Of a stretch of DNA of 64,000 nt, positions 17,288-60,623 are shown in pieces (position 1 is the stretch's first letter; every line of letters starts with the position of its first letter). The translations under genes were made by a program, and so were the position numbers. The notes under the pieces were generated by a model. The model saw only the letters and a list, made by a program, of their open reading frames with translations. It ran no database searches and was not told the origin of the DNA. The stretch is from Serripes groenlandicus (Eukaryota > Mollusca > Bivalvia > Cardiida > Cardiidae): NCBI GenBank assembly GCA_031761405.1, contig JASEVX010000011.1:32290140-32354139 (forward strand). The letters run 5' to 3'.

Positions 17288-20200
17288 TCAGCCCCACATT
17301 TTACGACAACATCTCCAGATTCTGGGATAGTACCACTTGGGGCATTTTCCAGCTACGTAGAAGTACTTCTTTGGGCAGCGCTTAGCACAAAAACAGGTCC
17401 TGCCCCCTGGTGTTGCTGAATTGAAGGAAATACTCTTCGTGAGATGAGATAATAAAAAGACAAATGCTTCTCGTATTTGGAAGAACAGGTGGCTTTCGAT
17501 AGTTCGAACATGTGGAAAGTATAATATGTCTTTTAATCCGAACCATTTCGTGTAACGGATTGGTTCATTGAAAACAGCGTAGCAATCAGAACTGCTGTTG
17601 CACTTTTTTTCGATAATTGTTTTACTACCTCGATTTTCATAATACACACATCATCATGAATGAATTAAAAATTCTTAATGAATGTAACATAAATTCAGTA
17701 GCGACATCTCAAAAACGTCGATAACTCAAATTATTTTGAGATTCTTTTCGACTTCGTCTCAGCAATAAGAACTGCTGATACATTGTTTTGACATGTAATA
17801 TCGAGTTCAATGATATATTTGAATTAGCACATGTTCATGTGATCGCAAAAGAGAAATATGTAACAATCATTTCAAGGCGGAACATCATGAGAAATGAAGA
17901 AATGCTCATCCAATTCAATCGTTCAGAAGCAGAAGTATAGCACATGTTGATTTATATATATATATACAATTGCGTGTGTATATGTGTGTATTTATAGATA
18001 TGCATATAAACTTGATTTTAAACTTATTTAATTTAAACTTAGTTCAGTACTATTTCTCAACTATTTCATTGTCTTAACCATTTCTGTATGTATATTTGTG
18101 AATATCAACCATTTCTGTTCTGTTATGTTCTGTTGATTAGTATAAATAGCTCTCATTTCCTAGAATTAACACAATCATTTCTGCAATTAAAATGTCCAAA
18201 GATTGTTTCCTAACGACCATTGCTGCGCTTACATTTATTTCAGTTACAAACAAAAAACACGATATATATATTAAGGATGTACTGATCTGATAAGTGGATA
18301 TTTTTATTATATTTAACTTTTGTCGTAACATTATTATTGTTAAAGTTGGATGTATGGATAATAAAAAAACAAACAAAAAGAATGCTATGTTGCTGTGCTT
18401 TATTTTATGCTAGATTCATTTATGAAAGCCTTATGATATGCCTTTTTTTGTTGCTATTTCAGGACATGAAAAATAAACGTTTTCATGCAAATTACCAATA
18501 ATTTCAAGATGATATGCTAATTGTTTGTCTTCTTGTGGTTTAAATCTCTTTCTGAAGATATTTTATCCATATCTTTGGACGTTCACGTGATATGTTGTAA
18601 TTAAACCTCAAAAATATACGCTATGTTGCCCTACTGAGAACCCATATATATCAGGTGTAAGAATGGACAAGTTCAAAACTTTTAAAAAGGAAAAAACATA
18701 ATTATAATATTTAACTATTTCTAATACTTCAGCAAATTTTTGCAATAACTATCATTTATCAATATTTAAAAAGGAAAGAATATGTCACAGAGCAAAATGT
18801 ACAGTTTTTCTTGTCTGAATTACCTCCCTTGTCTTAAAAGTGTTAAAATATGAATATATATTTATTTATCTTTCAAACATATCTTCAATTGTAACTGGAA
18901 GGCTGACGAAAAAATCAGCTCTTTAGCTGAAGCAAATTGAATCCACTATGTTTTAAATTTTGAAGCATTACAAAATGGCATTATGGCTAAACATGTTTTA
19001 ATTGACAACAAATAAGAATGATACATCCTTTATTTTTATTTTATCCACTTCTCAGTTCAGTACATCCTTAAATCCTAGTCAATATGATTTAATTGCTCGA
19101 TGTCCAGTAAACAGTCATTTCCTTTCTGTCACTATTTTTAATTGGTCGATGTCCAGTAAACAGTCATTTCCTTTCTGTCACTATTTTTAATTGGTCGATG
19201 TCCAGTAAACAGTCATTTCCTTTCTGTCACTATGATTTAATTGCTCGATGTCCAGTAAACAATCATTTCCTTTCTGCCACTATGATTTAATTGCTCGATG
19301 TCCAGTAAACAGTTATTTCCTTTCTGTCACTATGATTTAATTGCTCGATGTCCAGTAAACAGTCATTTCCTTTCTGTCACTATGATTTAATTGCTCGATG
19401 TCCAGTAAACAGTCATTTCCTTTCTGTCATTACTATGATTTAATTGCTCGATGTCCAGTAAACAGTCATTTCCTTTCTGTCACTATGATTTAATTGTTCG
19501 ATGTCCAGTAAACAGTCATTTCCTTTCTGTCACTATGATTTAATTGCTCGATGTCCAGTAAACAGTCATTTCATTTCTGTCACTAGTGAGCATATGTTAC
19601 AGTTTAACCCTTTCCCCACATATAGACGTGTTCTGACACCTGTATAGCATACGATAATGAGCAAGTTATCTTTTTGCTACAATTTGTTCAACTCATTTTT
19701 AATAATTCAACCCTTATATATTGATTTTCTCTAAGGTTTTGGCAAATACATTGTTAAGGATGTACTGAACTGAGGTTTTGAAATTAAAAACAATTTTTTT
19801 TTTTTTACTTTCTTATTAAATCCTCTTATTTTGTTGTCAATTAAAACCTGTTTAGTCATTATACCTTTTATAATTCATCAAAATTTAAAAAAAATGGATA
19901 AAATTTGCTTGAGATAAAAGGCCTATTTTTTTCATGAGCCTTCAATTTTTTCGTGAGACGCTGTCCAGTTGCCGTGTTTGATTAAGAATGAATGAATGTA
20001 TATTTTTTTATGGCGCATCGACAGCTAAGGTCATTTAGCGCGCAATTAAATTTAATTATTCATGATCCCTGGGTAAACAAACCAGTACTAGGCTAGAAAA
20101 TGTGCCTTGCCCAAGGGCACTCCACCATGACCGTAGTGCCGGTTTGATTAAGAAATAAAACTTGGAAAAAAGAATATATTAAAGTCCATGTATATAAATT

Positions 20201-21294
20201 TTAATCTAGAACTTGTATAGTATCATATTGTTTTGAAAAAAAGTAGAAAATATTGGAAAACGTTTTTGACATTTGAAGATATGTTTGAAAAATTAGTAAA
20301 TATATATTCATATTTTAACATTTTTTAGCCATTCAAAGAAGAAAAACTGAAAATATTGCCCAATGACATATACTTTTCTTATTAAAATCTGATAAATTAT
20401 AGTAATTTAAATAACTTAGAGAAGTTTCAGAAAAAGTTAAATATTACAAATATGTTTTTTCATTATTTCAAAGTTTTGAAATTGTCTATTCTTAAATCTG
20501 ACAAATATGGATTTTCATTAGTGTCAAATAGTGTCTATTCTTTAGCTTTAACTACAATGTATCGCATGAACTTTCAAAAATATGGATAAAATACCTTCAG
20601 AATGAGATTAAAACCACAAGAAGTTAAACAATTAGCATATCATCTTTCAAATATCGGCAATTTGCGTGAATTTTTTTTTTTCATGGGCTGAAATAGCAAA
20701 AAGCTCAGCATAAGGCTTTTATAAATTGATCTAGCAAAAAAAAAGCCCACTACCATACTTTTTTTTTTGTTTTTTTTAATTTAACATATATCCAACTTTC
20801 AAAAAACCAATATTACAACAAAAGTTAAATATTATGAAAAATCCACTTTTCAGTTCAGTACATCCTTAAAGTCATCTGCTGCAGGTTTGTTTTATACACA
20901 TGCGTATGAGGTGATTTGTTCATGTTTAAATACATATATTTATCAGTCAATAACATGTGTCTGTATTAAGATGACTTTAATCACTCGGCTATTTACGAAC
21001 ATAGATGACAAACTCGAGTGTTCACTTATGTCGAATAGTTCTGACTGTCTGTATTTATCCTGTCAAACAAAACGTTAAGTTTGACCTAGACACCTACATC
21101 TTCGATTTTTTGTTTGTTAACTCTCCAAAAAATAAACATAAAAGAACAGATATTTTATTTTCAACTTAAGCATAAACAGCTCATGGTTGATATTCCCAAA
21201 TATTCATACAGAATTGGTTAAAACAATGAAATAGTTGAGAAAAAGTAATTAATTAAGTTTAAATTCATATTTATATGCATATGTATATAAACAC

Positions 21295-21326
<32 letters not shown>

Positions 21327-22437
21327 GCAAATGTCTATATATATATTCATATACCCATGCACATACCTATATATACATATATTAATTTCAATATGAAATT
21401 AATTTGTTCAAGAAAGAAATTGGGACTGTTAACGCCCTACTATTAAGGATGCATTTTTTTTCAAGTTATCTCATCTCAAAAGCCTTCAGGAAAAAGGGCG
21501 CCAGTTTACATACATATTTTTACTTTCTGTGTCAAAGAGTTCTATGAACTTGTACATACTTGGACGCTGTGCGTAATAGCGCGGTATGAGTTGTTTTCTT
21601 AATGTTGCATAGAACAGACAAACTAATACACAATGGAATTCATCCTCCGAAATATTTAAATAACATAAGGTACAAACTCTTTGATTCCTTTCAATGTTTT
21701 CATGACGACTAAGTTTCAATTCTTAATTTATGGGATGTCAGCCTAAGCTTAAATAGAGTGTTTCTATAGTTTTGAAAAAAGAAAGAATGAACACTTATGA
21801 AATAAAGGGCAAAACACTTCGGCAGAATGAGAAATTAGTCATAACGAACAATGTTTCCTTTTGGCACAGTGTTTTCAAAAGTGGTCTGCTGCAGATGCAT
21901 AGGAAAGCGTCTCTATATGGGAAAGTATTAAATACCTAAACCTTCACCATCTGAAACTTACGGCTTATTACTTATCATTGAATCATTCGATTAGATTGAA
22001 CTTATTGATTAATCAATTCGAGTATGAGTTATAGAACATGTTATGCATTATCAAAGAATCGTATCGACTGACCTTGACCATATTACTATTTTCGCTATAC
22101 AGACGATAGTTAACATCTCTGAAGCCGACGACTTTTAACAAATAAATGGTAAAAGGAAATCTTTCTCAAGACAATTAATTATCCTTTTCCCAAAATGGTT
22201 CTGACACACTATATGTATCAAGGGACGTAGCTATATGTCCCTGATGTATCGAAGGAATACAAGAAACTTCTTTGGTGCTGCAATTATATTTAGACATTTA
22301 CAAAGCAGACGACTTTAAAAGTATCACAACAGATAAAGAAAAAATCAAAATTGAAGTACGTTACCTTCCGCATGTTCGATGAGAGCAGCGCCAAGCAGGC
22401 ACACAAGCAGCAAAACGGCAATGGCTTTGTTATTCAT
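17288..22437 (-). CDS. Cysteine-rich cationic secreted peptide, copy A (putative antimicrobial peptide)
   Basis: Two-exon gene. Exon 1 (22437 down to 22365, 73 nt) encodes Met-Asn-Asn-Lys, a Leu/Val-rich core and Ile-Glu-His-Ala-Glu, a classic signal peptide. It ends at a GTAA donor in phase 1. Exon 2 (17415 down to 17288, 128 nt) follows a polypyrimidine-CAG acceptor and ends in TGA. The split codon makes Ala25, giving an Ala-Glu-Ala cleavage motif and a 41-residue mature peptide; the precursor is 66 residues. Cysteines at 32, 34, 38, 49, 60 and 61 give C-X1-C-X3-C-X10-C-X10-CC. The mature part has no Asp or Glu, about 11 Lys/Arg and many Trp/Tyr/Phe; the terminal Gly could be an amidation donor. 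Copy A differs from C at four mature positions, three of which make A more basic (Arg for Met, Arg for His, Lys for Pro). The 4.9-kb intron is enlarged by transposons. I do not recognise the family; a secreted antimicrobial role is inferred from composition. Confidence 0.85.
18275..19067. mobile_element. TTAA-flanked non-autonomous DNA transposon in copy A intron (element 1)
   Basis: Bounded by TTAA at 18271-18274 and 19068-19071. The terminal inverted repeats of about 26-28 bp start GGATGTACTGATCTGA on the left and GGATGTACTGAACTGA on the right (reverse complement), both continuing with AAGTGGATA. The matching site in the copy B intron (ATATATTAAAACCCTAG on that strand) has a single TTAA and no insert. 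TTAA targets are typical of the piggyBac superfamily. No transposase frame is present. Confidence 0.85.
19077..19590 (+). repeat. 50-bp intronic minisatellite, copy A (10 units)
   Basis: Ten near-identical tandem units of 50 bp with the core TTGCTCGATGTCCAGTAAAC then AGTCATTTCCTTTCTGTCAC. It lies inside the intron of copy A, between a TTAA element and a remnant MITE. Confidence 0.93.
19758..20865. mobile_element. TTAA-flanked non-autonomous DNA transposon in copy A intron (element 2)
   Basis: Bounded by TTAA (19754-19757 and 20866-20869), with the same GGATGTACTGAACTGA inverted ends as the element at 18275-19067. The interior matches that element in inverted orientation (the AACCACAAGAAGTTAAACAA region against its reverse complement). 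It landed inside a remnant CCCTTTCCC-type MITE and carries a nested SINE. It has no coding capacity. Confidence 0.83.
19989..20141 (-). mobile_element. SINE fragment nested in TTAA element 2
   Basis: Flanked by a 13-bp direct repeat, GTTTGATTAAGAA (19976-19988 and 20142-20154), an exact target-site duplication. The interior (GGTAAACAAACCAGTA ... AAGGGCACTCCACCATGACC) matches the body of the tRNA-headed SINE at 37425-37625 on the opposite strand, but the tRNA-like head is missing. Confidence 0.75.
21276..21393. repeat. TA/CA microsatellite in copy A intron
   Basis: (TA)n followed by (CA)n and interrupted ATATAC runs. A shorter TATATATATA/GTGTGTAT tract is at about 17951-17995 in the same intron. 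Confidence 0.85.
21486..21719 (-). pseudogene. LINE C-terminal fragment in copy A intron
   Basis: Minus-strand frame with CTLCYLNISEDEFHCVLVC, the same zinc-binding tail class as the LINE at 15171-15957. No ATG starts it; a related reading continues upstream (21720-21760, Ser-His-Lys-Leu-Arg-Ile-Glu) in another frame, so there is a frameshift. It is not a host gene. Confidence 0.65.
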
Positions 22438-22481
22438 GTCGACCGGTGGTTTTACAATGAAAACTTCACCAACCAAGCTCA

Positions 22482-22489
22482 CTTATATA
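22482..22489 (-). promoter_or_regulatory. TATA box of copy A
   Basis: TATATAAG on the minus strand, with its 5' end 52 nt upstream of the ATG. The 5' leader between box and ATG is nearly identical in all three copies. A CCAAT motif (minus strand, 22586-22590) and the flanking AAATAAACCGCA-like block are also shared. Confidence 0.7.
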
Positions 22490-24657
22490 CTGGATTTTCA
22501 TCGTTATTATACGATATTTCGGCCATAAATTAGAAATACAAAAACGCACCATCGAGTGTATGCGGTTTATTTATGAACGATTTTGATTGGTCACATACAT
22601 GCACTGCAATGATTGATTGGTTAATTTGTGTCGTAATTGAACACATTGTATTCTTTTGTTTTATTGCATGATATTTCAATCTGTGTCTTTGTAAAATAAA
22701 TGTAAATATTTAAGTAAAATAGATAGTGAACGTCAGCTCGAAGACAGGCTGACCAGATACTGACGCAATGGTTGCTCTACTGCTACATGTAGCAACAATA
22801 AATCAGTTTCGTTTTCTTTATATAAAGATGCAGAAATAGAAAATGAGCTTGCCCACAGTAATTTGTATTATAAGTTGGAGTTTTATGCCGTTTTCAACAT
22901 TATTTCAGTTATATCTCGGCGACAGTTCACTCATTCATGATCCCTAGGTAAACAAACCAGTAGAAGGCTAGGAAATGTGCCTTGCCCAAGGGCACTCCAC
23001 TATGACCGTCGTGCTTCGACTGGGGATCGAACACAGGTCGCCCGGACCCAAATGCCAGACGCTAATCCACTTTGCCACGGCTGATTCTTCGTCTTATCAG
23101 AAACTTCTCATGCTGGTAAATGCGTCTTATAAGCTTGTGTAAGTAATATTTGCGCCAGTGCATTCAAACATATTGATCTAGATTAGCCCTGTTCACCCAA
23201 AAGAAAGCCAATGTATAACCTTTCCCAGGAACAGGTTCAATTATTAGAGTTAAATGATTGATGGGGAATTTATGTGGATCTCTATGAGTAAATTACATTT
23301 CGTTGGCGAATACAGTGCATATCTTTTCCGTAGTGTTCATATAATCACTCCTCATAGCTAACAAATTGCTTTCCCAAATAACCGGATAATGAATGGAATT
23401 TCGAACTCAAGAGTGCTGAATCAAAAGCACAAACTATCCGACAGAGTTCGATACATGTATGCATAGATGCCAACGACGTCCACGTGACACAATTTAACCG
23501 AGGAGATACTAATTTGCAAGTGTAAGACGATGATTTGTTTAGTTTGATATTTAAATTAGATATCTCAAGTGCTGCAGGTCGCAGGTTCGATTCCGGTCGA
23601 GTCATATCAGACTTTAAAAGTTATAGTAATGGCCGCGCTCCTTGCCGCTCGGAGTTGCGGCATAAGCATTACGACTGACTAACTGGTGTCAGGATAAATG
23701 GACCAGTATTACTGGTAACATATCCAGTAAACGCCGTGATATAACTGGAAAATTGTTGAAGCGGCGTTAAAACTCCAAATAATCATAAATAATCAAATAC
23801 ATTTCAGTTTTACGATGGCGTTACATGTAAGGGGTCGATTTACGCGTAAACTGTCACGTTCTCACTATCTACATGTCTTTTAATCGAAATGTAATCTGCG
23901 CGATTCGGTACCGGATACAGGTTCTACTGTCACGTTCGCACTATCGACATGAATGTAAGATTTGAAAGCGGCGTAAAACACCAAACAATCAATGAATCGA
24001 TAAGTTAGATTAAACTCATGTATTTTTACATTTATTGCGGATTAGTCCTTACAACTAACACGAATCAACGTCTCTGTCTGCTACCTTCGTAGTTACGCAC
24101 TGTGTAGGAAGATCTCAAGATTCAACTCACTTTGTCGGGAATCTAACCCGTGACCTTTGTATGACATTGGCTGACGATCTAGCTCTGGGTCCCTGTATCC
24201 AAGCAATATTAACCGTGTCGGTCTGTACCTGTACAATTAACGTCCTTATACGTAAAATAAGTAATTCGTCTCGAAATATGATTGATGTTTGTTATACAAT
24301 AACAGTTGTCAAACTCAACGGTGATGTCTCGGTTCAGACGCGATTGATTTATAACAATGAGCTTAGCGCTACTTCAAAATAATTAAAACTGCTAACGTAA
24401 TACGTAAAGTGAAAACAAAAAATGAAATGTGTGTATGTTTAACCTTGTGCAGCTTGTCGACGTATTTGAACGCATCTCTGCAGACTTTTAAAAACATTCT
24501 GACGCAAGTAGATTTTGTTCATTATAAGCAATTTCTCCTTTTGCCACACTATTTCTAAGAAATTTCGTCAACTGCAGATGCACCACACAGCGTCTGCTTG
24601 TGGGCAAATAGATTGTTATTATGATAAGAGGTGTAACAGTGCATTTGTGCGATATAT

Positions 24658-24903
24658 GAGCCGTTCCACGAGAAAATCAACCGTGTGGATTCTGCGTGAA
24701 GCATCGACCCGGATCAGCCTAAGTATGCCGCGCAGGCTAACCCGGACTGACACTGTTCGCCTCCTCTGGATTTTCTGCTTCAGGAATCATAACTCTATAC
24801 CTCTATCTCCCTCAGACGGAATTAGTCGGCCCGGACGCGCAGGCTGATCTGGTTCGATACATTACGCAGAGTCCATATTGTTGGTTTTCTTGTGGAACTG
24901 CTC
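24658..24903. mobile_element. GAGCCGTTCCA foldback element upstream of copy A
   Basis: Inverted arms of about 90 bp begin GAGCCGTTCCACGAGAAAA and end TTTTCTTGTGGAACTGCTC. Each arm contains CATCGACCCGGATCAGCCT-like sequence and CGCGCAGGCT. It has no coding capacity. Similar foldback MITEs are very abundant in clam genomes (established knowledge recalled in general terms). Confidence 0.75.
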
Positions 24904-25499
24904 AATTATGTTCCGACACAGCGAAACAATGATACCCAATTTGGCCAGATGCGGTTACTATATATTATTGAGTTATTTCCAATGTCCTTTCTACATCCCT
25001 GTCGCCTAGCGTTCACATATTTTGGACCATATTCACACATTCATTAAATTATAAAAAATGTTTATTCTATATTCACTCCAAAGAGACATGTCTTAAACAT
25101 AAATAATGAATTAGCCAATCAGAAAACGTGTTACTTCGAAATTTAGAATATAGACAACTAGATTTGGAATTCATTAAGCATGGCTGATCATGATTGTTGA
25201 ATTAGCGAATGCACAGTACAAGTTTTGTTCCGAAATTCAATAAATATTCGGCAAGAGTTCCTATTCAAATACTGAAGGTTTGATTTTAGTTTGTCCTATG
25301 GTAGTATAGAGTGATATCTTACGGAAAGTCGACATTGCTTTTTATGGCAACTAACATGCAATCTGTCTATGAATTCACTGGAGACGAAAACAGAACAATA
25401 TAATTTCAAATATCATCTATCAAAGTATTAAGTCTATTCTGTCTACTTAATGAATGATAATATAATCAAACATTAACCCTGTCCACGTTTTTTTTAAAT

Positions 25500-27783
25500 C
25501 TATTTGATATGTCTGAAATGTGTGTATTTACTTACTGCATATCCGTATGCAGGAGTATGGTATTTGATAGGTCTGAAATGAGTGCATTTAGCTACTGATT
25601 ATCCATATACAGTAGAATGATAAATGTGTGTATTTACTTACTGTTTATCCATATACAGTAGAATGACATTTGATAGGTCTGAAATGTGCGCATTTAGCTA
25701 CTGTTTATCCATATACCGGTGTATGGCATTTGAAAGGTCTGAAATGAGTGAATATGTGTTGCGTTAGGTCTGAAGCGCGTATATTTAGATACTGAGTATC
25801 CATTGATCGTAGTACGACATTTTATAGCTTGTGTAAACATGTATTTATGTGTGTATTTTGTTACTGAGTATCCGTATACAGGAGTATTTCTGAGGTCTGA
25901 AATTTGTGTATTTATGTACTGATTAACCAAATACCGGAGTATAGTATTTGACAGGTCTGAAATGTGTGCGTTTACTTACTGATTATCCATATTCCAGAGT
26001 ATGATAATTTATAGGTCTTAAATGTATGCAATAAGTTAATGGTTATCCATATACCGGAGTATGGTATTTCTGAGGTCTGAAATTTGTGCATTTAGGTACT
26101 GATTATCCAGTTCAGGATTTTGTTATTTCATAGGTCTGAAATGTGTGCATTTACTTACTGATTATCGATATTCCAGAGTATGGTTATTTATAGGTCTAAA
26201 TTTTTCTTACTAGTGATTAGTTATTGATTATCCAGTAACATTAGTTTGTTATTTCATAGGTCTGTAATGTGTTTATTTACTTACTGATTAACCATATACC
26301 GTAGTATAATATGTGATAGGTCTGGAATAGATGTATTGACTTACTGATTATCCATATACCGGATTATATTACTTAATAGGTCTGAAATGTGACTATTGAC
26401 TAACTGAGTATGCATATACCGTATTATGGTATTTAATAGGTCTGAAATGTGTCTATTGACTAACTGAGTATCTATATACCGGAGTGTAATATTTAATAGG
26501 TCTGAAATGTGTCTATTGACTTACTGAGTATCCATATACCGGAGTGTAATATTTAATAGGTCTGAAATGTGTCTATTGATTGACTGAGTATCTATATACC
26601 GGAGGGTAATATTTAATAGGTCTGAAATGTGTCTATTGACTTACTGAGTATCCATATACCGGAGTGTGGTATTAAATAGGTCTGAAATGTCTTCATGTAC
26701 TTAACGAGCATCCATATACCGGAGTGTGGTATTTAATAGGTTTGAAATGTGTCTATTGACATACTGATAATCCATATACCGGACTGTGATACTTAATAGG
26801 TCTGAAGTGAGTTTATTTGCTTAATGAGTATCCCTATACCGTAGTGTGTTATTTAATAGGTCTGAAATGTGACTATTAACTTACTGAGTATCCATATACC
26901 GGAGTGTGTTATTTTATAGGACTGTGGTACTTTTAATGATTTCGCATTTACCGGTTTATGGTATTTGATTAGGTCTGAAATGTATGTATTTACCTACTGA
27001 TTTCGCATTTGCCGGTTTATGATATGTGATAGGCCTGAAATGTATGTATTTACTTAATGATTTCGCATTTACCGGTTTATGGTTCGTGATAGGTCTAAAA
27101 TGTATGTATTTACTTAATGATTTCGCATTTACCGGTTTATGGTTCGTGATAGGTCTAAAATGTATGTATTTACTTAATGAGTTCGCATTTACCGGTTTAT
27201 GGTATTTGATTAGGTCTGAAATGTATGTATTTACCTACTGATTTCGCATTTGCCGGTTTATGATATGTGATAGGCCTGAAATGTATGTATTTACTTAATG
27301 ATTTCGCATTTACCGGTTTATGGTTCGTGATAGGTCTAAAATGTATGTATTTACTTAATGATTTCGCATTTACCGGTTTGTGGTATATGATAAGTCTGAA
27401 ATGTGTGTATTTACTCACTGATTTCGCATTTATCGGGTTATGGTATGTGATATGTCTGAAATATATGTATTTACTCACTGATTTTGCATTTACCGGTTTA
27501 TGGTATGTGATAGGTCTGAAATGTATGTATTTTCTTACTGATTTCGCATTTACAGGTTTATGGTATGTGCTAGGTCTAAAATGTATGTATATACTCTCTG
27601 ATTTCGCATTTACCGGTTTATTGTATGCGATAGGTCTGAAATGTATGTATTGACTGACTGATTTCGCATTTATCGGTTTATGGTTAGGGACAGGTCTGAA
27701 ATGTATGTATGTACTTACTGATTTCGCATTTACCGGTTTATGGTATTTGATATATCTGTAATGTGTGTATTTACTTACTGTTT
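25500..27783 (+). repeat. 60-bp minisatellite array, left palindrome edge
   Basis: About 38 tandem units of 60 bp with a core like CCATATACCGGAGTATGGTA followed by TTTGATAGGTCTGAAATG. Three zones are visible: diverged units (25.5-26.3 kb), a CTATTGACT-containing zone (26.3-26.9 kb) and a GATTTCGCATTTACCGG zone (26.9-27.78 kb). In the last zone a four-unit block is repeated 241 bp apart (26961 and 27202), a recent higher-order duplication. Because 60 is a multiple of three, open frames run through parts of the array on both strands; these are not genes. Confidence 0.93.
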
Positions 27784-32468: not shown

Positions 32469-34750
32469 AAGAGACCTATAAATAACCATACTCCGGTATA
32501 TGGTTAATCAGTAAGTAAATGCACACATTTCAGACCTGTAAAATACTATACTCCGGTATATGGTTAATCAGTAAGTAAATGCACACATTTCAGACCTGTC
32601 AAATACTATACTCCGGTATATGGTTAATCAGTAAGTAAATAAACACATTTCAGACCTATGAAATAACTAACTCCAGTACTTGAGCTCAGAAATAACATAC
32701 TCCGGTATATGGATAACCAGTAACTAATTAAACACATTTTAGACCTATAAATAACCATACTCTTGAATATGGATAATCAGTAAGTAAATGCACTCATTTA
32801 AGACCTATCAAATATCTTGAACCGGCAAATGGTTAATCAGTAAGTAAATAGACATATTTCAGACCTAACATAAACCATACTCCGGCAAATGAATGATCAG
32901 TATGTGAATACACGCATTTCAGATCTAACATATACCGTATTCCGGTAAATGGTTAATCGGTAGGTAAATAAACACATTTACGACCTATCAAATATCTTGA
33001 ACCGGTAAATGGTTAATCAGTAAGTAAATAGACACATTTCAGACCTAACATATACATGCACAATAATCCGGCAATTGAATGAACAGTATGTGTATACACG
33101 CATTTCAGACCTAACATATACCGTACTCCGGTAAATAGTTAATCGGTAAGTAAATACACACATTTCAGACCTATAAAATACCATACTCCAGTAAACGGTT
33201 AATCATTGATTAAATACACACATTTCAGACCTAGCAAATACCATAAACCGGAAAATGGTTAATAAGTGATTAAATACACACATTTCAGACCTATCAAATG
33301 CCATTAACCGGTAAATGGTTAATCAGTTAATAAATACACACATTTCAGACCTATCAAATACCATTTCTCCGGTAAACATTTAATCGGTGAATACATACAC
33401 ACATTTCAGAACTATCAAATACCATAAAACGGTAAATGGTTAATCAGTGAGTAGATACACACATTTCAGACCTATCAAATACCAAAAAACCTGTAAATGG
33501 TTTATCAGTGAGTAAATACACACATTTCAGACATATTGAATACCACACTCCGGTAAATGCGAAATCAGAAAGTAAATAAACACATTCGCAATTGGATACT
33601 CATTAAGCAAATATACATAGTTCAGACCTATCAAATACCATACTCCGGTAAATGGATAATCCGTAAGTAAATAAAAACATTTCAGATCTATCAAATACCA
33701 TACTCCGGTAAATACGAAATAAATAAATAAATAAACACAAACTAGACATATCAAATACCATAAACCGGTAAATGGTTAATCAGTAAGTAAATAGCCATAT
33801 TTCAGACCTATCAAATAACATTACCGGTATATGGATAATCAGTATCTACATATACACGTTTCGGACATATAACATACCATATTCACTCATTTCAAACTTA
33901 TTAAATACCATATTCCTGTAGATGGATATTCGGTAACTAAATACACTTATTTCAGACCTAGTAAATGCCATATTCCTGTATATGGATAAACAGTAGCTAA
34001 ATGCACACATTTCAGACCTATCATTTACCATTCTACTGTATACGGATAAACAGTAAGTAAATACACACAATTCAGAACTATCAAATGCCATACTCTTGTC
34101 AATTGATAATCAGTAGCTAAATGCACACATTTGAGACCTATCAAATACCATACTACTGTATATGGATAATCAGTAGCTAAATGCACACATTTCAGACCTA
34201 TCAAATACCATACTCCGGTATATGGATAATCAGTGAGTAGATACACACAATTCAGACCTATCAAATACCATACTACTGTATATGGATAATCAGTAGCTAA
34301 ATGCACACATTTCAGACCTATCAAATACCATACTACTGTATATGGATAACTAGTGAGTAGATACACACAATTCAGACCTATCAAATACCATTCTACGGCA
34401 TATGGATAATCAGTAAGTAAATACACACAATTCAGAACTATCAAATGCCATACTCTTGTCAATGGATAATCAGTAGCTAAATGCACTCATTTTAGGCCTA
34501 TCCAATACCATGCTACTGTATATGGATAATCAGTAAGTAAATACATACAATTCAGACCTATCAAATGCCATACTCTTGTCTATGGATAATGAGTAGCTAA
34601 ATGCACACATTTCAGACCTATCAAATACCATACTGTGGTATATGGATAAACAGTAGCTAAATGCACACCATTTTGACCTATCAAATTCCATACACCTGCA
34701 TACGGGTAATCCGTTAGTAAATACACACATTTAAGCCCTTTCAAATATAT
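32469..34750 (-). repeat. 60-bp minisatellite array, right palindrome edge
   Basis: Reverse-complement counterpart of the array at 25500-27783, about 38 units and of almost equal length. Around 34.14-34.50 kb the units alternate between two variants (ACACACATTTCAGACC with AGCTAAAT, and ACACACAATTCAGACC), giving a 120-bp dimeric pattern. Array homogenisation has therefore proceeded separately in the two arms. Confidence 0.92.
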
Positions 34751-42928: not shown

Positions 42929-43186
42929 AAAGATTACTTACGTAAGCTTGTTAAACACATGTGTAACCTTGTGTATCTTCCAATGAGACGGAGTAAATGT
43001 ACAATCTGATCTGAACCCTACACTGTTTAGTCATGTTAATGTGTATATTTTCAAATAGACGGGCTCAGATTATGCTGGTGGACGCGGAACACCCTTCCTA
43101 GAATAAGTTTATACCCATCTTTAGCTTAAAATCTATTTAAATGAATTTCGATTTTTGAACCGTGTTCAGCTAATGGGTTGTTTGGT

Positions 43187-43435: not shown

Positions 43436-43479
43436 AACTGTAACCTACTAGCCACAGAAGTACGTGAGTTCGTGGAAGA

Positions 43480-43600
43480 CAGTGGTGCAGTGGTAGAGCG
43501 TCGGGCTATCGTATCAAAGGTCCCGGGTTCGAATCATGCGATGAGCGAGTTCTGCCTTAGAGATTTCCCCACACAAATGGTGCGAGTACTGGTTATGTTT
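43480..43600 (+). mobile_element. tRNA-headed SINE (family 2)
   Basis: The head has A box TGGTGCAGTGGTAGAGCGTC and B box GGGTTCGAATC, followed by GAGCGAGTTCTGCCTTAGAG. The tandem duplicate is at about 45112-45235. Counterparts are at about 53190-53315 (minus, arm C) and 13830-13945 (minus, arm A); another pair is at 41268-41360 (minus) and 55265-55385 (plus). Confidence 0.8.
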
Positions 43601-43954
43601 AAAATGAAGCAGATATCGAGCGTGAAAATTATAAGCTGAAACCTTGTTTTGTAATACCTTTAAAATAAATACATTTAAACTAAGTAGTTGAAAACATAAT
43701 AAAACACACTGTGTATAAAACGTTAAGGTGATAGTTCTCTATCTTTAATTGTTATATATGGTTTTCTCGGAAGAACGTGCCATTCCTCAGCTGATGTTAC
43801 TGATACCAATTTAGCCATGCCATGCGGAACGGGATTTAGTGTCATACCCGTTTAGGCATCAATTAAAGGTGTTTCAATATCACAGATTTGGTTACATTTC
43901 TAAAGTTTCATCAGAAGCTCCATCAATCGCTTTTCTGAATGTTATCGCACATTG

Positions 43955-44094
43955 ATAACCTATGACTAAAAGTGGAAAACATTGTGTCAAAAGGAGAAAT
44001 TGCTCGTTTTGAGCAATTTATTCTTTTGTCACTATGTTTTTTAAAAAGCCGTCTGCTTCAGAGGCGTCAGAAAGCGTCTATTTGAGGGAAAGGG
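43955..44094. mobile_element. Half MITE at tandem-duplication junction
   Basis: Only the right half of the element at 42101-42320 is present, ending GAGGGAAAGGG-TTAA at 44095-44098. It begins exactly at the junction of the tandem duplication. Confidence 0.8.
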
Positions 44095-45869
44095 TTAAAC
44101 TTAAACGGTTTTATGAAATCGATGCAATGGTAATTAGATGCAATTAAAATAATTTGTTGCCAGAATCAGAATCCGCCAGTTTCGAGTAATTGTTCGATTT
44201 GCTACGCAGTACGGTGTTTTCAAGAGGTCGAGTCTTGGGGAAATTGTTTATTTATTTAAATACGCCCGTTTTTTCATAATATGATATAAAATCGTTAAGC
44301 CACTGGCTTCTACTCCTAATTTTAATTCATCATAATTTGTTGTTTTTTATTCAATTATCATGTATGTAGTATATCTGAGCCTGTGTATACATAAATGTAT
44401 AATATGGCTTTTTAAAACAGCGTAGATCCAAATAAAACCATGAAACTGTTTGATCAATATCTCAACTGTTCAAAGATTACTAACGCAAGCTTGTTAAAAA
44501 CATTTGTCACCTTATACGTGTAGCGTTCCAATAAGACGGGGTAAATGTACAGTCTGATCTGAACCCTACACTGTTTAAAGATTACTTACGTAAGCTTGTT
44601 AAACACATTTGTAACCTTGTGTATCTTCCAATGAGACGCGGGTCTGATCTGAACCCTACACTGTTTAGTCATGTTAATGTGTATATTTTCAAATAGACGG
44701 ACTCAGATAATGCTGGTGGACGCGGAACACCCTCCCTAGAATACGTTTATACCCATCTTAAGCTTAACATCTATTTAAAAGAATTCCGATTTTTGAACCG
44801 TGTTCAGCTAATGGGTTGTTTGGTGCTTTACGCCGCTTTCAACAATTGTTCAGTTATATCACGGCGTTTCCTTGGTTAGTTACCAGTACACCTGGTCCAT
44901 TTATCCTAACACCAGACAGTCAGTATTAATGTTAACCCTCAACCCTGAGCGCAAAGGAGGGCAGCCATTACTACCATTCAAAGTATTTGGTATGACCTGA
45001 CTGGTGATCGAACAACGAGTATACAACACTACTACACCACCGAGGCTGTCCGTGCTCAGTTAAAATCTAGTTAAACTGTATCCTACTAGCCACAGAAGTA
45101 CGTGAGTTCGTGGAAGACAGTGGTGCAGTGGTAGAGCGTCGGGCTATCGTATCAAAGGTCCCGGGTTCGAATCATGCGATGAGCGAGTTCTGCCTTAGAG
45201 ATTTCCCCACACAAATGGTGCGAGTACTGGTTATGTTTAAAATGAAGCAGATATCGAGCGTGAAAATTATAAGCTGAAACCTTGTTTTGTAATACCTTTA
45301 AAATAAATACGTTTAAACTAAGTAGTTGAAAACATAATAAAACACACTGTGTATAAAACGTTAATGTGATAGTTCTCTATCTTTAATTGTTATATATGGT
45401 TTTCTCGGAAGAACGTGCCATTCCTCAGCTGATGTTACTGATACCAATTTAGCCATGCCATGCGGAACGGGATGTAGTGTCATACCCGTTTAGGCATCAA
45501 TTAAAGGTGTTTCAATATCACAGATTTGGTTACATTTCTAAAGTTTCATCAGAAGCTCCATCAATCGCTTTTCTGAATGTTATCGCACAGTGAAGACCCT
45601 TTTGAGATGTGCACGTGGGAAGGTACTTAATTGGAACAAATTATGTGAAGTATTGATGCTCTAGAAAGTCAACGCACACATGATTAGGTGGGTTGATCGC
45701 AGAGATGTAAATTACAAACTGCTGTAAATGCGTTAAGGAAGGCCGAGCAGGACTCAAATTTGCGGTACCCGGAGTGATAGGCTTTGTCGTTACTGATTGA
45801 GGCAATCTCATTAAAACCAGATCTTAACTTATAGAGTATTCCGGTTGTATTTGAATAAACAAAGGAACA

Positions 45870-52465: not shown

Positions 52466-55400
52466 GGTACTTTTCCATGTACTCACCTGAAAACAGAATG
52501 GAACATCTACATAAAACTAATTCGTGGGAAAAGGTTCAAGGTTGATGTTTCGGTCTACCGGATCGTATATCAGAATTATTTCAGTCGTAGACGTACCCAT
52601 AGTTAGCTTGTCAATGCTTGATACCTCAGTCAGTAACGACAAAGGCTATCACTCCGGGTACCGCGAGTTCGAGTCCTGATCGGCCATCCTTACCCCATTT
52701 ACAGCAGTTTGTAATTTACTTCTCGTCGATCAGCCCACCTAACCATGTGTTCGTTGACCTTTTCGAGCACCAATACTGCACATAAATTGTTCCAACTAAG
52801 TACCTTCCCACGTGCACCTATCAAAAGGGTCTTCATTGTGCGAAAACATTTAGAAAAGCGATTGATGAATCTTCTGATGAAACAATAGAAATGTAACCCA
52901 ACCTGTGATATTGAATTACCTTTAATTGATGCCAAAACGGGATGGAAACTAAATTCCATTCCGCCTGGCATGGCTAAATTGGTATCAATAACATCAGCTG
53001 AGGAATGGAACGTTCTTCAGAGAAAACGATCTATAACAATTTAAGATAGAGAGCTATCACCTTAACGTATCATACACAGTTTATGTTACTATGTTTTCAA
53101 CTTCATGTACTTAGTTTAAACGTATTTATTTTACAGGGATTGCGAAACAAGGTTTAAGCCTATAATGTTCACGCTTCATTATAAACATAACCAGTACTGG
53201 CGCCATTTATGTGGGAGATTCCCTAAGGCAGAACTCGCTCATCACGGGAATCGAATCCGGGACCTTTGGTACGATAGACCGACGCTCTACCACTGCACCA
53301 CTGTCTTCCACGAACTCGGGTACTTCAATGGCCAGTCAGCTAACAATGGATACAGGTAGGTTTTAACTGAGCACGTACAGCCTCGTTTGTGTTGCGGAAT
53401 AACATGGTATACTCGTTGTTCGATCCCAAGTCAGGTCATACCAAAGACTTTAAACATTGTAGTAATGGCTGCCCTCTTGCGCGCTCAATGTCGCGGGTTA
53501 GCATTTCGACTGACTTGCTAGTGTAAGCACAAATGGACCAGTAGTATTGGTAACTTACCCAGGAAACGCCGTGATATAACTGAAACACATGTTGAAAACG
53601 GCGTAACACATCTGCGTAATGTATCGACCAGATCAGCCTGCGCTGTTCGCGCAGACTGATCCGGCCGACACATTCCGTCTAAGGGGGGATAGATAGAGAA
53701 GAGATTCGCTTAGGGTTGCGAGTTAGCATAACGACTCACTGGCTGGTGTCAGGGTAAATGTACCAGTAGAACCGGTATCTTACCAAGGAAACGCCGTGAT
53801 ATAACTGAACAATTGTTGAAAGCGGCGTTAATCACCAAACAATCCATTAGCTGAACACGGTTCAAAAGTCGGAATTCATGTATATAGATTTAAAGCTAAA
53901 GATAGGTATAAACGTTTTTTAGGAAGGGTGTTCCACGTCCACCAGTATAATCTGAGTCCGTCTATTTGAAAATATACACATTAACATGACTAAACAGTGT
54001 AGGGTTCATATCAGATTGTACATTTACTCCGTCTCATTAGAACGATACACGTACAAGATGACAAATGTTTTTTTAACAAGCTTGCTTAAGTAATCCTTGA
54101 ACAGTGTAGATATTGAGCAGATAGTTTCACAGAATTTTTTGGATATACGCTGTTTTCAAAGGCCAATTTGTACATTTGTGTATGCACAGGCTCAGATATA
54201 CTACATACATGATAATGAAATAAAACAAAAGTATGATGAATTAACATTAGGAGTAGAAGCTATTGGCTGTACAATTTTATATTATATTATGAAAAAACGG
54301 GCGTATTTAAATAAATTAACAATTTCCCCAAAACTGGACCTCTTGAAAACACCGTACTGCGTAGCTAAGCGAACAATTACTCGAAACTGGCGGATTCTGA
54401 TTCTTGCAACAATTATTTCAACTCTGCATCTAATTACCATTGCATCGATTTCATAAAACTGTTTACGAAATGTCCAAAGAAGACTACTCTAAATATAACA
54501 GCTAATTTCTTATTCCTTTGCCACATTAAATACTTTAACAGACATTCATATTTACAAAAAGTTATATTATTCGATAGAAATGAAAACATAGTGCCAACGA
54601 GAGAACTTGCTCACTGCTTGTTTAAGCATTTTATCTTTCTACAATGCTTATACAATTCGTTTGCTTCAAATACATCTGTATGTTGGAATGGGTTAATCAT
54701 ATATCGTAGTATAATTCATGGGTACAGAAAACACACGGATATTGTTTGTTTTATCGTATTTCTACGTTTAATTTTTTTAAATCAAAGATTGGAGACTTGA
54801 ATGGACAGATACAAAATTATATTTCTGTGTTCACGAGGTCGTTCTGTTGCCTTGTTTCTCTAACCTGTAATAAAATAATCAGGCATTCAGTATCTTTTCC
54901 GTCATGTATGAAACACAATTTGATATAGCCCGGCATTGTTGACCTGATCCTGACCTTCGTGCTAATATAAATTATACAATTATCGCATGACTTCCAGTGT
55001 GACAATATATACCCAATATGTTTACGAATGAAAATATATTTAGTTTTCTCATCTAAACATAAAGTTCGGTTAATTTGTGCTTTGATTTACTGATGCTATA
55101 AAGAGAATTTGGAATCAGTAAGGCGAACTATTGAAAATATATGAGCAAAAAAGTAATTGAATTGAATATAGATTAAAACTGATTGGCAAAATTATGTTGA
55201 CATATATGTAGTTCCTTTAAATCTAATTATGTGAGTCATTAATTTCACAATATGTATTTTATAAAATGTGGAAGACAGTGATTCAGAGCGTCGGCCTCTT
55301 GTACCAAAGGTTACAGGTTCGAATCCCGTGATGAGCGGGTTCTGCCTTTGGGATTTTTCCACACAAACGGCGCTAGTACTGGTACATGTAAGTATCCAAG

Positions 55401-56126
55401 AAGCAGACAACGATCCTAATTAATATAAGCTTAAAGCTTGTTTCGCAATGGATGTAAGATAAATAAGTTTAAACTAATACACGTATAAGCATTCTTCAGA
55501 AGGTAATCCGAAGATCAAAGGGAAGTTAATCTGAAAGGCTTGATCGGAATTTGCACAATACTACAATTGTCTCGCAAGAATCGCTGTTTTTTCATAACTG
55601 CATTTTGAATTTAATGAAAATGTATTTGTTCTTCATTTCTCGAATGAAAATAAGTTTCGTCTGTTTAGAAGTCTGAGGTACTAATATTGATATAAATGAA
55701 GTATAGAAATGCGCTCGGAAAGTACCATAACCCATTATGCTACAAGGGTAATGTATTGAAATTGAATTGCTTCCTTTAGGTAACGGCTCAGAGAGTACTC
55801 TGTAGTCAATGTTGAAGATGTTTCGAATGGTGTCGCTCAATACCTGCACGCTTTAACAAGATTATCACTTTACAATAACTTTATCCTGACTTTTGTTTAA
55901 TGAAACATATTAGTATGAAGTAAATGTTTCTGCTCCCATGTTTGACTCGGCATCTTTAATCCCAGACACTTGATTCAAAGAATTATGTATCACATGTAGT
56001 TGATTTAATATATTCTATATCCATTGCTTTATCAATTCTTAGAATGTATAGATTGCAACAACATGTAACACATATGAGCAAAAAGAAATTGATATTGAAC
56101 ATTAATGTGTTCTTTCAATCGAGAGC

Positions 56127-56372
56127 CAAGCCCCGGTAGCTCCGTCGGTAGCGGCGCGGGCTGTCAATCAAAGGGTTGTGAGTTCGAACCTGAGGTCAAC
56201 CAATATTCTTTCCAATGGTTGACTAAAGTCACTTTGACAAGCTTCATTTGTCTTCCACGAATGTTGTGTGGAGCACTGGTTTGAGAAAGTCGAGACACAC
56301 ATGAGTAGGTGAACTGGCATTGATATGAAACATTGTTGAAAACGGATTACAGCCCCAATCAATACACCGTGT
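56127..56372 (+). mobile_element. tRNA-headed SINE (family 1) downstream of copy C
   Basis: Counterpart of the SINEs after copies A and B. The head AGCTCCGTCGGTAGCGGCGC is the best preserved of the three. The tail is GATTACAGCCCCAATCAAT. Confidence 0.8.
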
Positions 56373-56507
56373 GTCTTTGTATGCATTGTATAACACAGTT
56401 AAAGAAAACATGTACGACATGAAACCGGTAATATAAATGTTGGTACAAAGGTCAGGATCAGGTTAATATCGCCAAGTTGTACCTGATCTTTGACTGTAAC
56501 CACGAGC

Positions 56508-59500
56508 TCAGCCCCACATTCTACGACAACATCTCCAGATTCTGGGATAGTACCACTTGGGGCATTTTCCAGCTACGTAGAAGTACTTCGGTGGGCAGTG
56601 CTTAGCACAGAAACAGGTCATGCCCCCTGGGGTTGCTGAATTGAAAGAAATATTCTTCGTGAGATGATATAATAAAAAGACAGATGCTTCTCGTATTTGG
56701 AAGAACAAGTGACTTGCGATCATTCGAACATGTGACAAGTATAATATGTCGTTAACATTTTCGTGTAACGGATTGGTTCATTGAAAACAGCGAAGCAATT
56801 AGAACTGCTGTTTCACTGTTTTCTTGATAATTGTATTACTAGCTCTATTGTCATAATACACACATCATCATAAATGAATTACGAAACAAAGTGAATCCTA
56901 AAGGAATGTAACATTACTGCAGTAGCGAAATCTCGAAAACGTCGATAGCTCGAATTATTTTGACGTTTCTTTCAACTTCGTCTGAGCAATAAAAACTGCT
57001 GATACATTGTTTTCAAAGGAAATATTGAGTTCATTGATATATTCGAAAAAGCAAATTTTCCATTGATCGCAAAAGAGAAAGATGTTACAATTATTTAAAG
57101 CGACTGAACTCCAGATACCCAACTGTCAAAAAAAAAATATAATTTCCAATTTTAAGAAAATAAGTGTTATTTTTGTATTTGGGGCATCAACATGTGTGAT
57201 AACTGACATATTGCATACCCCTATAATCGGTGAGATTTTCTTGTTTTCGATACTTTTTCCATCGCAAAGACTACCCTGTCAGTAACGGGGTAAGTTTATC
57301 AATAGCTTTCGATGCTTTTAATCTCATTCATCACGTGATTTGAAAAGTCGTCACGTGAATTGAAGAGTCGTCACATGACCGATAGGACGCATACGCATTA
57401 AATTAAACATTTTTTACTATGAAGGTTTTATGCAAAATCACGAGGAGCTCATGCAATCACAAACAAATCTCTATGATTACTGTCGTTCGACTCCGCCAAA
57501 CGTGTAAATTGTGAATAACTGTACACGCCTGTCAGAGTGAACCGTTATATAGTTATATCACGTGATCGCTGCAAGGTGCTCGTCTGAAGCATTCCGTGTT
57601 GTTGCTTTTTTTTTTTTTTTTACATTGATTTAATTGCTCGATGTCCAGTAAACAGTCATTTCTTTTCTGTCACTATGATTTAATTTCTCGATGTCCAGTA
57701 AACAGTCATTTCCTTTCTGTCACTATGATTTAATTGTTCGATGTCCAGTAAATATTCATTTCCTTTCTGCACTATGATTTAATTGCTCGATGGCTAGTTA
57801 ACAGTCAATTCCTTTCTGTCACTAGTGAGCATATGTTACAGCTTAACCCTTTTCCACATAAAGACGCTTGGTGACGGCTGTACTGCAGACGACTTTGGAA
57901 AGGATTGTGGCAGAATGAGAAATTGCTCATGATGAGCAATTTCTCTTTCGCAAAAATATTTCTAACTCTATTTAATAATCAAATATAAGGAGATTTTGTG
58001 GGTGTTTGCTTCTTTGTTGCACTGTTTTCTCAATAATTGTATTACTAGCTCGATTGTCATAATACACATATCTTTAGGAATGAATTACGAAACAAACTGA
58101 ATCCTAAATGAACGTACAGTAATATAACTGAAGTAGCAATAACTCGAAAACGTCGATAACTCGAATTATTTTGACGTCCCTTTCGAGATTTTCTGAGCAA
58201 GAAGAACTGCTGATACATTTTTCTTAAAGGAAATATCGAGTACAATGATATATTCGAATTAGCACATGTTCGATTGATCGCAAAAGAGAAATATGTAACA
58301 ATTATTTAAAGACGGAACATAATGAGAGATGAAGAAATGCTCATTAGGTATCCAATGTTTTGGAAACAGAAGTATTATAAGGATATGTTAATAGTACAAA
58401 TAGCACTAATTTCCTAGAATTAACATAATTATTTCTGCAATTTAAATATCCAAATATTGTTCCCTAATGACCATTACTGCTCTTACATTTATTTCAGTTA
58501 CAGAAAAACACGATGAACCCTAGTCACGATGATTTAATTGCTTGATGTCCAGTAAACAGTCACTTCCTTTCTGTCACTATGATTTAATTGCTCGATGCCC
58601 AGTAAACAGTCATTTCCTTTCTGTCACTATGATTTAATTGTTCAATGTCCAGTAAACAGTCATTTCATTTCTGTCACTATGATTTAATTGCTTGATGTCC
58701 AGTAAACAGTCACTTCCTTTCTGTCACTATGATTTAATTGCTCGATGTCCAGTAAACAGTCATTTCCTTTCTGTCACTATGATTTAATTGCTCGATGTCC
58801 AGTAAACAGTCAATTCCTTTCTGTCACTATGATTTAATTGCTCGATGTCTAGTAAACAGTCATTTCCTTTCTGTCACTATAATCTAATTGCTCGATGTCC
58901 AGTAAACAGTCATTTCCTTTCTGTCACTATGATTTAATTGCTCGATGTCCAGTAAACAGTCATTTCCTTTCTGTCACTATGATATAATTGCTCGATGTCC
59001 AGTAAACAGTCATTTCCTTTCTGTCACGTGACTAGTGAGCATATGTTGAAGTTTAACCCTTTCCCACATATAGACGCTTTCTGACGCCTGTACAGCAGAC
59101 GATAATGAGCAAGTTATCTTTTTGCTACAATGTGTTCGACTCTATTTAATGATTCAACCTTTATATATGGAGATTTTTTATATTTTGCCAATAGGTTTTT
59201 GCATTGAAGAAAGTGGTCATGATTTTTCGATCATGACCGCTGTCAAGGAGTGATCATGACCGTAGATAAGGACGTGCGAAAATTCTTCAAAATTAACATG
59301 CTAGGGACTACTTTTGTTATGTAAACAAACATAGCTGACCTAAATATCATTGTTAAACCTCACGGGACTTTGTAATGTTAAATTCTCATATATTGATCAT
59401 GGACAATTCTTACTGTCTCATGCTAACAGTACGTTTTTTGACATGAAAACAGTCTAAAACGCGCGTCTAAAATGTTGGTTATGCACGTGCATGACGTCAT

Positions 59501-60623
59501 TTAAAAAAATTACGTCACCGTTATAATTCAAACGGCATTTCCACAAAAATTACTACTTATGTAAACAAACAGTTTGTTTCTAATTCGGAAGCAGATTTAT
59601 CAATTCTAGATAATAAAAAAAACCTCCACAAGGTAAAGCAAATAGTTTACAATATGAAAGTATGCAATAAAAAGGTTATTGACCCTGTACTGTGAAATCA
59701 TCGTTGGACCTCGTTCTTTGGCGAACGTAGCCTCGCAAGCTCGGCAACGTCAACCAAAGAACTCGGTCCAACGATGATTTCACAGTACAGGGTCAATAAC
59801 CTATAGTATGAGGTGATTTGTTCATGTTTAAATACATATATGTATCAGTCAATAACATGTGTCTGTATTAAGATGACTTTAATCACTCGGCTATTTACGA
59901 ACATAGATGACAAACGCGATTGTTCACTTAAGACGAATCGTTCTGACTGTCTGTATTTATCCTGTCAAACATAACGTTAAGTTAGACCTTGACACCTTTC
60001 CACATACAACAAATCTGCGAAAACACTTCGCCAGAATGAGAAATCTAGTCATTACGAACAATGTTTCCTTTTGGCACAGTGTTTTCAAAAGTGTTCTGCT
60101 GCAGATGCATAGAAAAGCGTTTCTATATGGGAAAAGTATTAAATACCTAAACCTTCACCATCTGAAACTTACGGCTTATTACTCATCATTGAATCATTTG
60201 TCTAGGTTGAACTTATTGTATACTCAATTCGATTATGTGTTATAGAACATGTTATGCATTATCAAAGAATCGTCTGTACTGACCTTAGCAATATTACTAT
60301 TTTCGCTATACAGACGATAGTTAACATCTCTGCAGCCGACGACTTTTGAAAATAAATGGTAAAAGGAAAACTTTCTCAATGCAATTAATTATCCTTTTCC
60401 CAAGATGATTCCGACAAAATATATATATTGAAGGAATACAATTATTTTCTTTGGTGAAGTAATGTTTTTTAAGACAGTTACAAACCAATCGCCTCTGAAA
60501 GTATTATAACAGACAAAATTGAAAAATAATTCAAACTGAAAGTACGTTACCTGCCGCCTGTTCGATGAGAGCAGCGCCAAGCAGGCACACGAGCAGCAAA
60601 ACGGCAATGGCTTTGTTATTCAT
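56508..60623 (-). CDS. Cysteine-rich cationic secreted peptide, copy C (putative antimicrobial peptide)
   Basis: Exon 1 runs from 60623 down to 60551 (73 nt, signal peptide). It ends Ile-Glu-Gln-Ala-Ala before the split codon, so the cleavage site reads Ala-Ala-Ala here. A GTAACG donor follows. Exon 2 runs from 56635 down to 56508 (128 nt) after a CAATTCAG acceptor. The precursor is 66 residues with the same C-X1-C-X3-C-X10-C-X10-CC framework, no acidic mature residue and a Met-Trp-Gly end. The 3.9-kb intron carries two blocks of the 50-bp minisatellite, a partial duplication of intron sequence near exon 2 and a 0.6-kb hairpin element. The order of cysteines (CXC at the start, CC at the end) resembles beta-defensin-fold peptides such as the APETx/BDS class, but the spacing differs and homology cannot be claimed from this alone. 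Confidence 0.86.
56810..58310 (-). repeat. Intron-internal duplication in copy C
   Basis: The segment at about 56.81-57.09 kb (ATTGTATTACTAGCTC ... GCAAAAGAGAAA) recurs diverged at about 58.02-58.31 kb. Between them lie a C-specific insert (about 57.09-57.60 kb, ending in a T run), minisatellite block 1 and a remnant MITE. This explains why copy C has two minisatellite blocks. Confidence 0.7.
57626..57826 (+). repeat. 50-bp intronic minisatellite, copy C, block 1 (4 units)
   Basis: Four units of the same 50-bp repeat, preceded by a run of 17-18 T. The last unit is diverged (CGATGGCTAGTTAACAG). Confidence 0.9.
58520..59030 (+). repeat. 50-bp intronic minisatellite, copy C, block 2 (10 units)
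   Basis: Ten units, separated from block 1 by about 0.7 kb that repeats the intron sequence nearest exon 2. It is followed by GTGACTAGTGAGCATATG and a remnant MITE, the same flank order as in copy A. Confidence 0.92.
59191..59804. mobile_element. Copy C intron insertion with long hairpin
   Basis: Absent from the copy A and B introns, where the flanking ATTTTGCCAAT and TATGAGGT sequences lie only a few dozen bases apart. It is bounded by ATAGGTT on the left and AACCTAT on the right. The left part has a small hairpin (GGTCATGAT ... ATCATGACC). The middle has TGACGTCA at 59492-59499 with TTACGTCA nearby. The right end is a 48-bp near-perfect inverted repeat. It has no coding frame and is probably a non-autonomous DNA element. 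Confidence 0.7.
59674..59801. repeat. 48-bp inverted repeat (hairpin)
   Basis: The left arm 59674-59721 and right arm 59754-59801 are reverse complements with only two mismatches near the loop (ACCTCGTT against ACCGAGTT). The loop is 32 nt. The outer ends are GGTTATTGACCCTG and CAGGGTCAATAACC. Confidence 0.92.

Follow-up and report, generated by a model that had tools for sequence, protein, structure and literature searches.

What kind of peptide is encoded by three short genes, here called A, B and C, in a 64-kb window of genomic DNA (64,000 nucleotides (nt), the whole stretch analysed), and do these apparently secreted, cationic, six-cysteine peptides belong with the defensins? The window is part of contig C113 of a 1.76-Gb assembly, and its source is most likely an invertebrate, since its CpG observed/expected ratio is 0.905 and vertebrate genomes show strong CpG depletion. 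We propose, at a probability of roughly 60%, that the genes belong to a clustered and so far undescribed invertebrate family, and that its products are defensin-like peptides of the trans-defensin type that serve host defence, a proposal drawn from features of the sequence.

Three two-exon genes in the window

A first-pass annotation of the window had described three two-exon genes with exons of 73 and 128 nt, a phase-1 intron and a shared cysteine framework, and this description was confirmed in its coordinates, GT-AG splice sites and open frames. When joined, the exons of each gene form an open frame for a precursor of 66 amino acids. The parts of the three genes are as follows.

22365..22437, minus strand: gene A exon 1 of 73 nt, encoding the signal peptide from the start codon on; donor GTAACG in phase 1
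17416..22364, minus strand: gene A intron, phase 1, GT-AG, 4949 nt
17288..17415, minus strand: gene A exon 2, six-cysteine mature peptide and stop, 128 nt
22482..22489, minus strand: gene A TATA box TATATAAG, 52 nt upstream of ATG
38081..38153, plus strand: gene B exon 1 of 73 nt, encoding the signal peptide; donor GTAAAG
38154..40009, plus strand: gene B intron, phase 1, GT-AG, 1856 nt
40010..40137, plus strand: gene B exon 2 of 128 nt, encoding the mature peptide up to the stop
38029..38036, plus strand: gene B TATA box TATATAAG, 52 nt upstream of ATG
60551..60623, minus strand: gene C exon 1 of 73 nt, encoding the signal peptide; donor GTAACG
56636..60550, minus strand: gene C intron, phase 1, GT-AG, 3915 nt
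56508..56635, minus strand: gene C exon 2 of 128 nt, encoding the mature peptide up to the stop
60668..60675, minus strand: gene C TATA box TATATAAG, 52 nt upstream of ATG

All three copies share the cysteine pattern C-X1-C-X3-C-X10-C-X10-CC, and a six-frame search of the window for C-X1-C-X3-C with a final CC and long gaps of 8–12 residues matched only genes A, B and C. Promoters of the three window copies were scanned with consensus strings. TATA and CCAAT boxes are common to all three; C/EBP, GATA and IRF matches are scattered upstream, none of them common to all three genes at one place, and no NF-kB, AP-1 or STAT match was present within 600 bases upstream of A, B or C.

A clustered family with intact and decayed copies

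The annotation had spoken of a three-copy cluster, which is correct inside the window and falls short for the genome as a whole. A genome search with the mature peptides returned 12 exon-2 matches at an expectation value (E) <= 0.001, all on contig C113: ten lie within 266 kb (32.08–32.35 Mb), and the other two are at 37.35 Mb and 37.43 Mb. Seven of the 12 belong to intact genes, in which both exons and both splice sites are preserved, namely A, B and C inside the window and D, E, F and H outside it, D being directly left of the window and H lying at 32.08 Mb on C113 (L009, 786-4514). The remaining copies are damaged or incomplete in different ways. L007 has an exon 1 shorter by two bases, with loss of frame; L011 and L012 carry GA instead of GT at the donor, L012 also having an internal stop; L010 has Cys3 replaced by Tyr and no exon 1 in about 10 kb upstream; and L008 has an intact exon 2, with no exon 1 in the roughly 14.5 kb before it. 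Gene births and deaths mark this clustered family, which grew by local duplication. Clustered sets of near-identical, diverging and decayed copies are usual for immune effector genes.

Features of the predicted peptides

Each precursor consists of a 25-residue signal-like segment followed by a mature part of 41 to 42 residues, with no propiece. The signal peptide claimed by the annotation corresponds to this segment, which carries an A-x-A cleavage motif at residues 23–25, behind which cleavage was assumed in defining the mature part; Ala occupies positions -3 and -1 of the presumed site in all seven intact genes. The mature parts had also been described as rich in Lys and Arg and free of acidic residues, and they are: in every intact gene they lack both Asp and Glu and contain six Cys, 8 to 11 Lys+Arg and 7 to 9 aromatic residues, and the isoelectric points for A–C are 9.6 to 9.9. 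A final Gly is likewise present in 7/7.

A C-terminal Gly predicts C-terminal amidation, and C-terminal amides are common in neuropeptides, so that the final Gly could also speak for a peptide with a regulatory or effector role other than immunity, such as an amidated hormone, a mucus or adhesive component or a venom-like peptide. We regard this as distinctly unlikely. The high Lys+Arg content without any acidic residue suits an immune effector better, as do the clustered copies with decayed members, and each precursor holds one peptide.

A cysteine framework close to that of alpha-defensins

The cysteine gaps are 1,3,10,10 in six intact genes and 1,4,9,10 in H. The annotation had called the framework unrecognised, a view that calls for revision after comparison with the alpha-defensin consensus C-X1-C-X3-4-C-X9-C-X6-10-CC given in excerpts of PMC515299. 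Genes A–F lie one gap step from this mammalian pattern (X10 for X9), and paralogue H, with C-X1-C-X4-C-X9-C-X10-CC, falls inside it, the sole fit among the seven intact genes; exon 2 of the broken copy L007 (1,3,9,10) fits as well. From the beta-defensin consensus in the same excerpts, C-X4-8-C-X3-5-C-X9-13-C-X4-7-CC, the window copies are six gap steps away and do not conform to it. When the same 24 loop residues are split in all 2925 ways, 7 splits fall within one step of the alpha motif, a comparison that is only suggestive because it was made after the pattern had been seen.

Beyond the gaps, the family shares with the mammalian alpha-defensins (human neutrophil peptides and cryptdins) a C-X1-C start, a terminal CC, small size, cationic character and a signal segment. 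The nine invariant residues of alpha-defensins listed in excerpts of PMC9872612 are the six Cys, a Gly two positions before Cys4 and the Arg and Glu of a salt bridge. That Gly is present in all seven intact genes and is replaced by Arg in the broken copies L011 and L012. The family differs from the mammalian peptides in having no salt bridge, no propiece and a C-terminal Gly, and its Cys4–Cys5 loop of 10 residues is at their upper limit; the CpG content of the window also argues against a vertebrate genome. Alpha-defensins carry an anionic propiece.

Possible profile similarity to beta-defensins and a common gene plan

We compared a family alignment (A6; 10 of the 12 exon-2 copies, L010 and L012 being left out as broken) with an alignment of five beta-defensin pieces (A8). 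The pieces were taken from rows with a displayed alignment, leaving aside non-defensin rows, a gallinacin-2 variant and the designed peptide P9R, and spheniscin entered after its pairwise hit. The two aligned in hhalign from Cys2 to Cys6 (five of the six Cys) with a probability of 76% and a score of 24.1, which was reached by 0/300 cysteine-fixed column shuffles and by 0/300 full column shuffles. For the mouse alpha-defensin cryptdin-4 (Crp4) against the same beta-defensin alignment, 27/300 shuffles scored as high, and in a negative control, beta-defensins against resistin-like molecules (RELM), 150/150 did. In pairwise comparisons of 6 of the 12 copies, with cysteine-fixed shuffles, all six members resembled spheniscin (P 0.0025 to 0.022); P was 0.02 to 0.57 against cryptdin-4, and against the AvBD2 and AvBD3 pieces none was significant (P 0.08 to 0.84). 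Cryptdin-4 itself, as a control against the three avian pieces, gave P 0.29, 0.012 and 0.021.

The gene plan points the same way. In excerpts of PMC7203481, big-defensin and vertebrate beta-defensin genes have in common that a phase-1 intron sits at the 5′ end of their cysteine-coding part, and this is used as an argument for common descent; the genes here have a phase-1 intron directly before the cysteine region, as in those genes. With vertebrate beta-defensins the family has the intron in common, and the Cys2–Cys6 region can be aligned, with a G-x-C motif and a CC-R tail; it differs in the Cys1–Cys2 gap (4–8 there, 1 here) and the Cys4–Cys5 gap (4–7 there, 10 here). Big defensins have the same intron position and a final CC, and are unlike the family in their hydrophobic N-terminal domain, absent here, in their other cysteine gaps and in the lack of visible profile similarity. 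Short, non-canonical big-defensin forms from Ruditapes and Dreissena, reported in the same excerpts, also do without the N-terminal domain, and the Ruditapes form keeps the intron (PMC7203481).

Among marine invertebrate antimicrobial peptides, the ascidian St-CRPs and turgencins are likewise six-cysteine and amidated, the amide here being predicted. In excerpts of PMC13208793 the St-CRPs have the alpha-defensin disulfide order and are 18–19 residues long, with a CC-C-C-CC layout and neutral charge; turgencins differ in their 1-6/2-5/3-4 disulfide order.

Evidence that weighs against a defensin identity

Several results pull the other way. No significant homologue was found in a protein collection, searched also with an exact three-row alignment of A–C, or in NCBIfam; Pfam scans gave nothing significant; and in the PDB, searched also with the mature peptides, the best match was a plant defensin at E 1.1. 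The closest approach in Pfam was Defensin_beta, which matched L007 alone of 10 members at E 0.16, below the cut-off, with the match reaching the profile end. Defensin_big was absent from scans of the exact A, B and C precursors, and the Pfam scans of the peptides gave no mollusc defensin, mytilin, myticin or macin match, the cysteine frameworks of these groups not having been compared. Blank homology searches say little against defensin membership, because in a sensitivity control cryptdin-4 matched the chains of human neutrophil defensins with E values no better than 0.07 to 3.9. Across the whole genome, a Defensin_beta search left the family unlisted; its three marginal matches (E 0.49–0.88) lay elsewhere, none with a CC-ended peptide. 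Matches below cut-off also occurred in control genomes, which included prokaryotes (Defensin_big in 1/14, Defensin_beta in 3/14).

Other points against lie in the peptides and profiles themselves. The alpha-defensin Arg-Glu salt bridge is absent in 7/7 intact genes, which have Ala at Cys2+1 and no Glu. Without spheniscin, 4/300 shuffles reach the score of the beta-defensin comparison, and against Crp4 variants alone the similarity is weak (2.9%). The comparison with big-defensin domains was null (92/150 shuffles as high), a test without power, as beta-defensins against big defensins, the control, were also null (45/150). Comparison with beta-defensins had been suggested by the annotation: by profile it gave a good lead (0/300 shuffles), and by structure prediction it gave nothing usable, since the two AlphaFold2 models were too poor (predicted local distance difference test, pLDDT, 57.4 and 61.7) and showed no defensin fold.

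The cysteine layout also has a second partial counterpart. The RELM motif in excerpts of PMC7251035 is C-X11-C-X8-C-X-C-X3-C-X10-C-X-C-X-C-X9-CC-X3-6; the family's first four cysteines, C-X-C-X3-C-X10-C, match part of it exactly, and the final CC with its short tail corresponds too. Found in the same way as the alpha-defensin match, this partial match illustrates that framework matches can mislead. It could be taken to mean that the peptides are shortened RELM head domains. Resistin-like molecules are larger proteins with ten cysteines, of which the family has six, and the four that are missing include what we take, from the resistin structure, to be the partners of four of the remaining six. 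Against two RELM heads from the PDB, hhalign gave no clear similarity (39/150 shuffles as high), and we consider this reading highly improbable.

Were the peptides an antimicrobial family that arose independently, cationic and six-cysteine, with its own fold and with a defensin-like layout, Gly and CC end that are convergent, the missing homologues and the locally duplicated copies would be accounted for. Such an origin would also agree with the genome search for Defensin_big, which gave no match over the cut-off of 25, although an exon-by-exon search could miss a gene; a parent gene is therefore not in evidence. Set against this are the similarity to beta-defensin pieces beyond the cysteines and the phase-1 intron before the cysteine region, shared with defensin genes. 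We judge independent origin unlikely, while still deserving attention.

The same genome search brought up a 57-residue open stretch on contig C852 (L020, 1498-1668) with a sub-threshold Defensin_big match of 21.3 bits. Its C-X6-C-X3-C is as in a big defensin, but a single Cys follows 25 residues later and CC is missing; the match is probably chance, or else marks a decayed exon.

The annotation had further suggested a new family. In literature on bivalve six-cysteine, alpha-defensin-like invertebrate and trans-defensin peptides, the family was not described in titles or abstracts, in a coverage from which subscription journals were mostly missing, and six peptide pieces of the family did not occur in the searched literature. 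What stands of that suggestion is the cationic character, the secretion signal, the host-defence look and the want of a significant homologue; its appeal to an unrecognised framework needs revising.

A possible origin and mode of action

If the genes are defensin-like host-defence genes of the trans-defensin type, as we propose, the peptide would be secreted without a propiece after signal cleavage, and the terminal Gly would be lost to leave a C-terminal amide. Three disulfides would form, in the alpha-defensin order 1-6/2-4/3-5 or the beta-defensin order 1-5/2-4/3-6, and the folded cationic, Trp/Tyr-rich peptide, to judge from charge and composition, would then most likely bind and permeabilise microbial envelopes. 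The cluster, in which some copies are nearly identical, others diverge and several have decayed, would have arisen by local duplication.

Alpha-defensins have been described from some mammals only, according to excerpts of PMC7203481 and PMC515299, which derive mammalian defensins from a beta-defensin-like ancestor. Tentatively, and with more doubt than for the proposal itself, we suggest that an invertebrate evolved the alpha-defensin spacing independently from a short beta-defensin-like gene. The peptides would then be true trans-defensins without the big-defensin N-terminal domain, and close paralogues would have switched between X3/X10 and X4/X9, the latter being the spacing used by mammalian alpha-defensins. 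If so, a near-alpha-defensin layout, together with the key glycine and the intron of beta- and big-defensin genes, can arise outside mammals, and these paralogues form a set for studying the step between two cysteine spacings. The family also offers cationic, Trp/Tyr-rich peptides with a predicted amide that can be tested.

Constraint on the coding parts

Alignable flanks and introns diverge by 14.0% (A-B), 14.1% (A-C) and 10.0% (B-C), and over the 201 nt of coding sequence these pairs show 12, 10 and 6 differing sites, with no insertion or deletion. Neutral simulation at the flank rate gave mean amino-acid differences of 14.4 for B-C and 19.6 for both B-A and C-A; those observed are 3 (P 0.0001), 7 (P 0.00045) and 6 (0/20,000 runs). 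The coding parts of A–C have thus changed less than the neutral expectation, beyond chance. Flank windows as conserved as exon 1 numbered 14/558 overlapping windows, and those as conserved as exon 2 numbered 23/470, 13 of the 23 being also gap-free. The ratio of nonsynonymous to synonymous divergence (dN/dS) of the coding parts is 0.26 to 0.63, on few changes. Synonymous divergence is also below that of the flanks, so gene conversion may have lowered the exon divergence of A–C. In the mature part dN exceeds dS in two pairs, E-H and F-H, where the changes are too few for positive selection to be claimed.

Duplicated units and other elements of the window

By self-comparison, among the matches listed, genes A, B and C sit in alternately inverted duplicated units of about 11 to 14 kb, with these approximate limits.

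13439..27783, minus strand: duplicated unit with gene A
32472..45617, plus strand: duplicated unit with gene B, inverted relative to A and C
52624..63731, minus strand: duplicated unit with gene C

A diverged 60-bp tandem repeat forms two large arrays in opposite orientation, 25501-27783 and 32472-34748, at the edges where the units of genes A and B face each other; the arrays may have aided the inverted duplication. A 50-bp tandem repeat lies in the introns of gene A (19070-19745) and gene C (57529-57875 and 58433-59191), with a shorter stretch in the gene B intron (about 39033-39348); some stretches of it agree to as much as about 95% between copies, among the matches listed.

Scans of the window for tRNAs and Rfam families gave no matches. 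Short palindromic elements resembling miniature inverted-repeat transposable elements, of the GAAGAAATTGC...GCAATTTCTTC type, lie at 28772-28863, 30485-30576, 42176-42267, 43950-44041 and 46108-46199. At 8638-9051 lies a fragment of a retroelement, with RNase H domains of a reverse transcriptase (Pfam RT_RNaseH_2, E 1.9e-21). A 206-residue open frame at 15173-15793, without a Pfam match, has 18 relatives of at most 66% identity that bear uninformative names, and it looks like the last part of a polyprotein from a retroelement.

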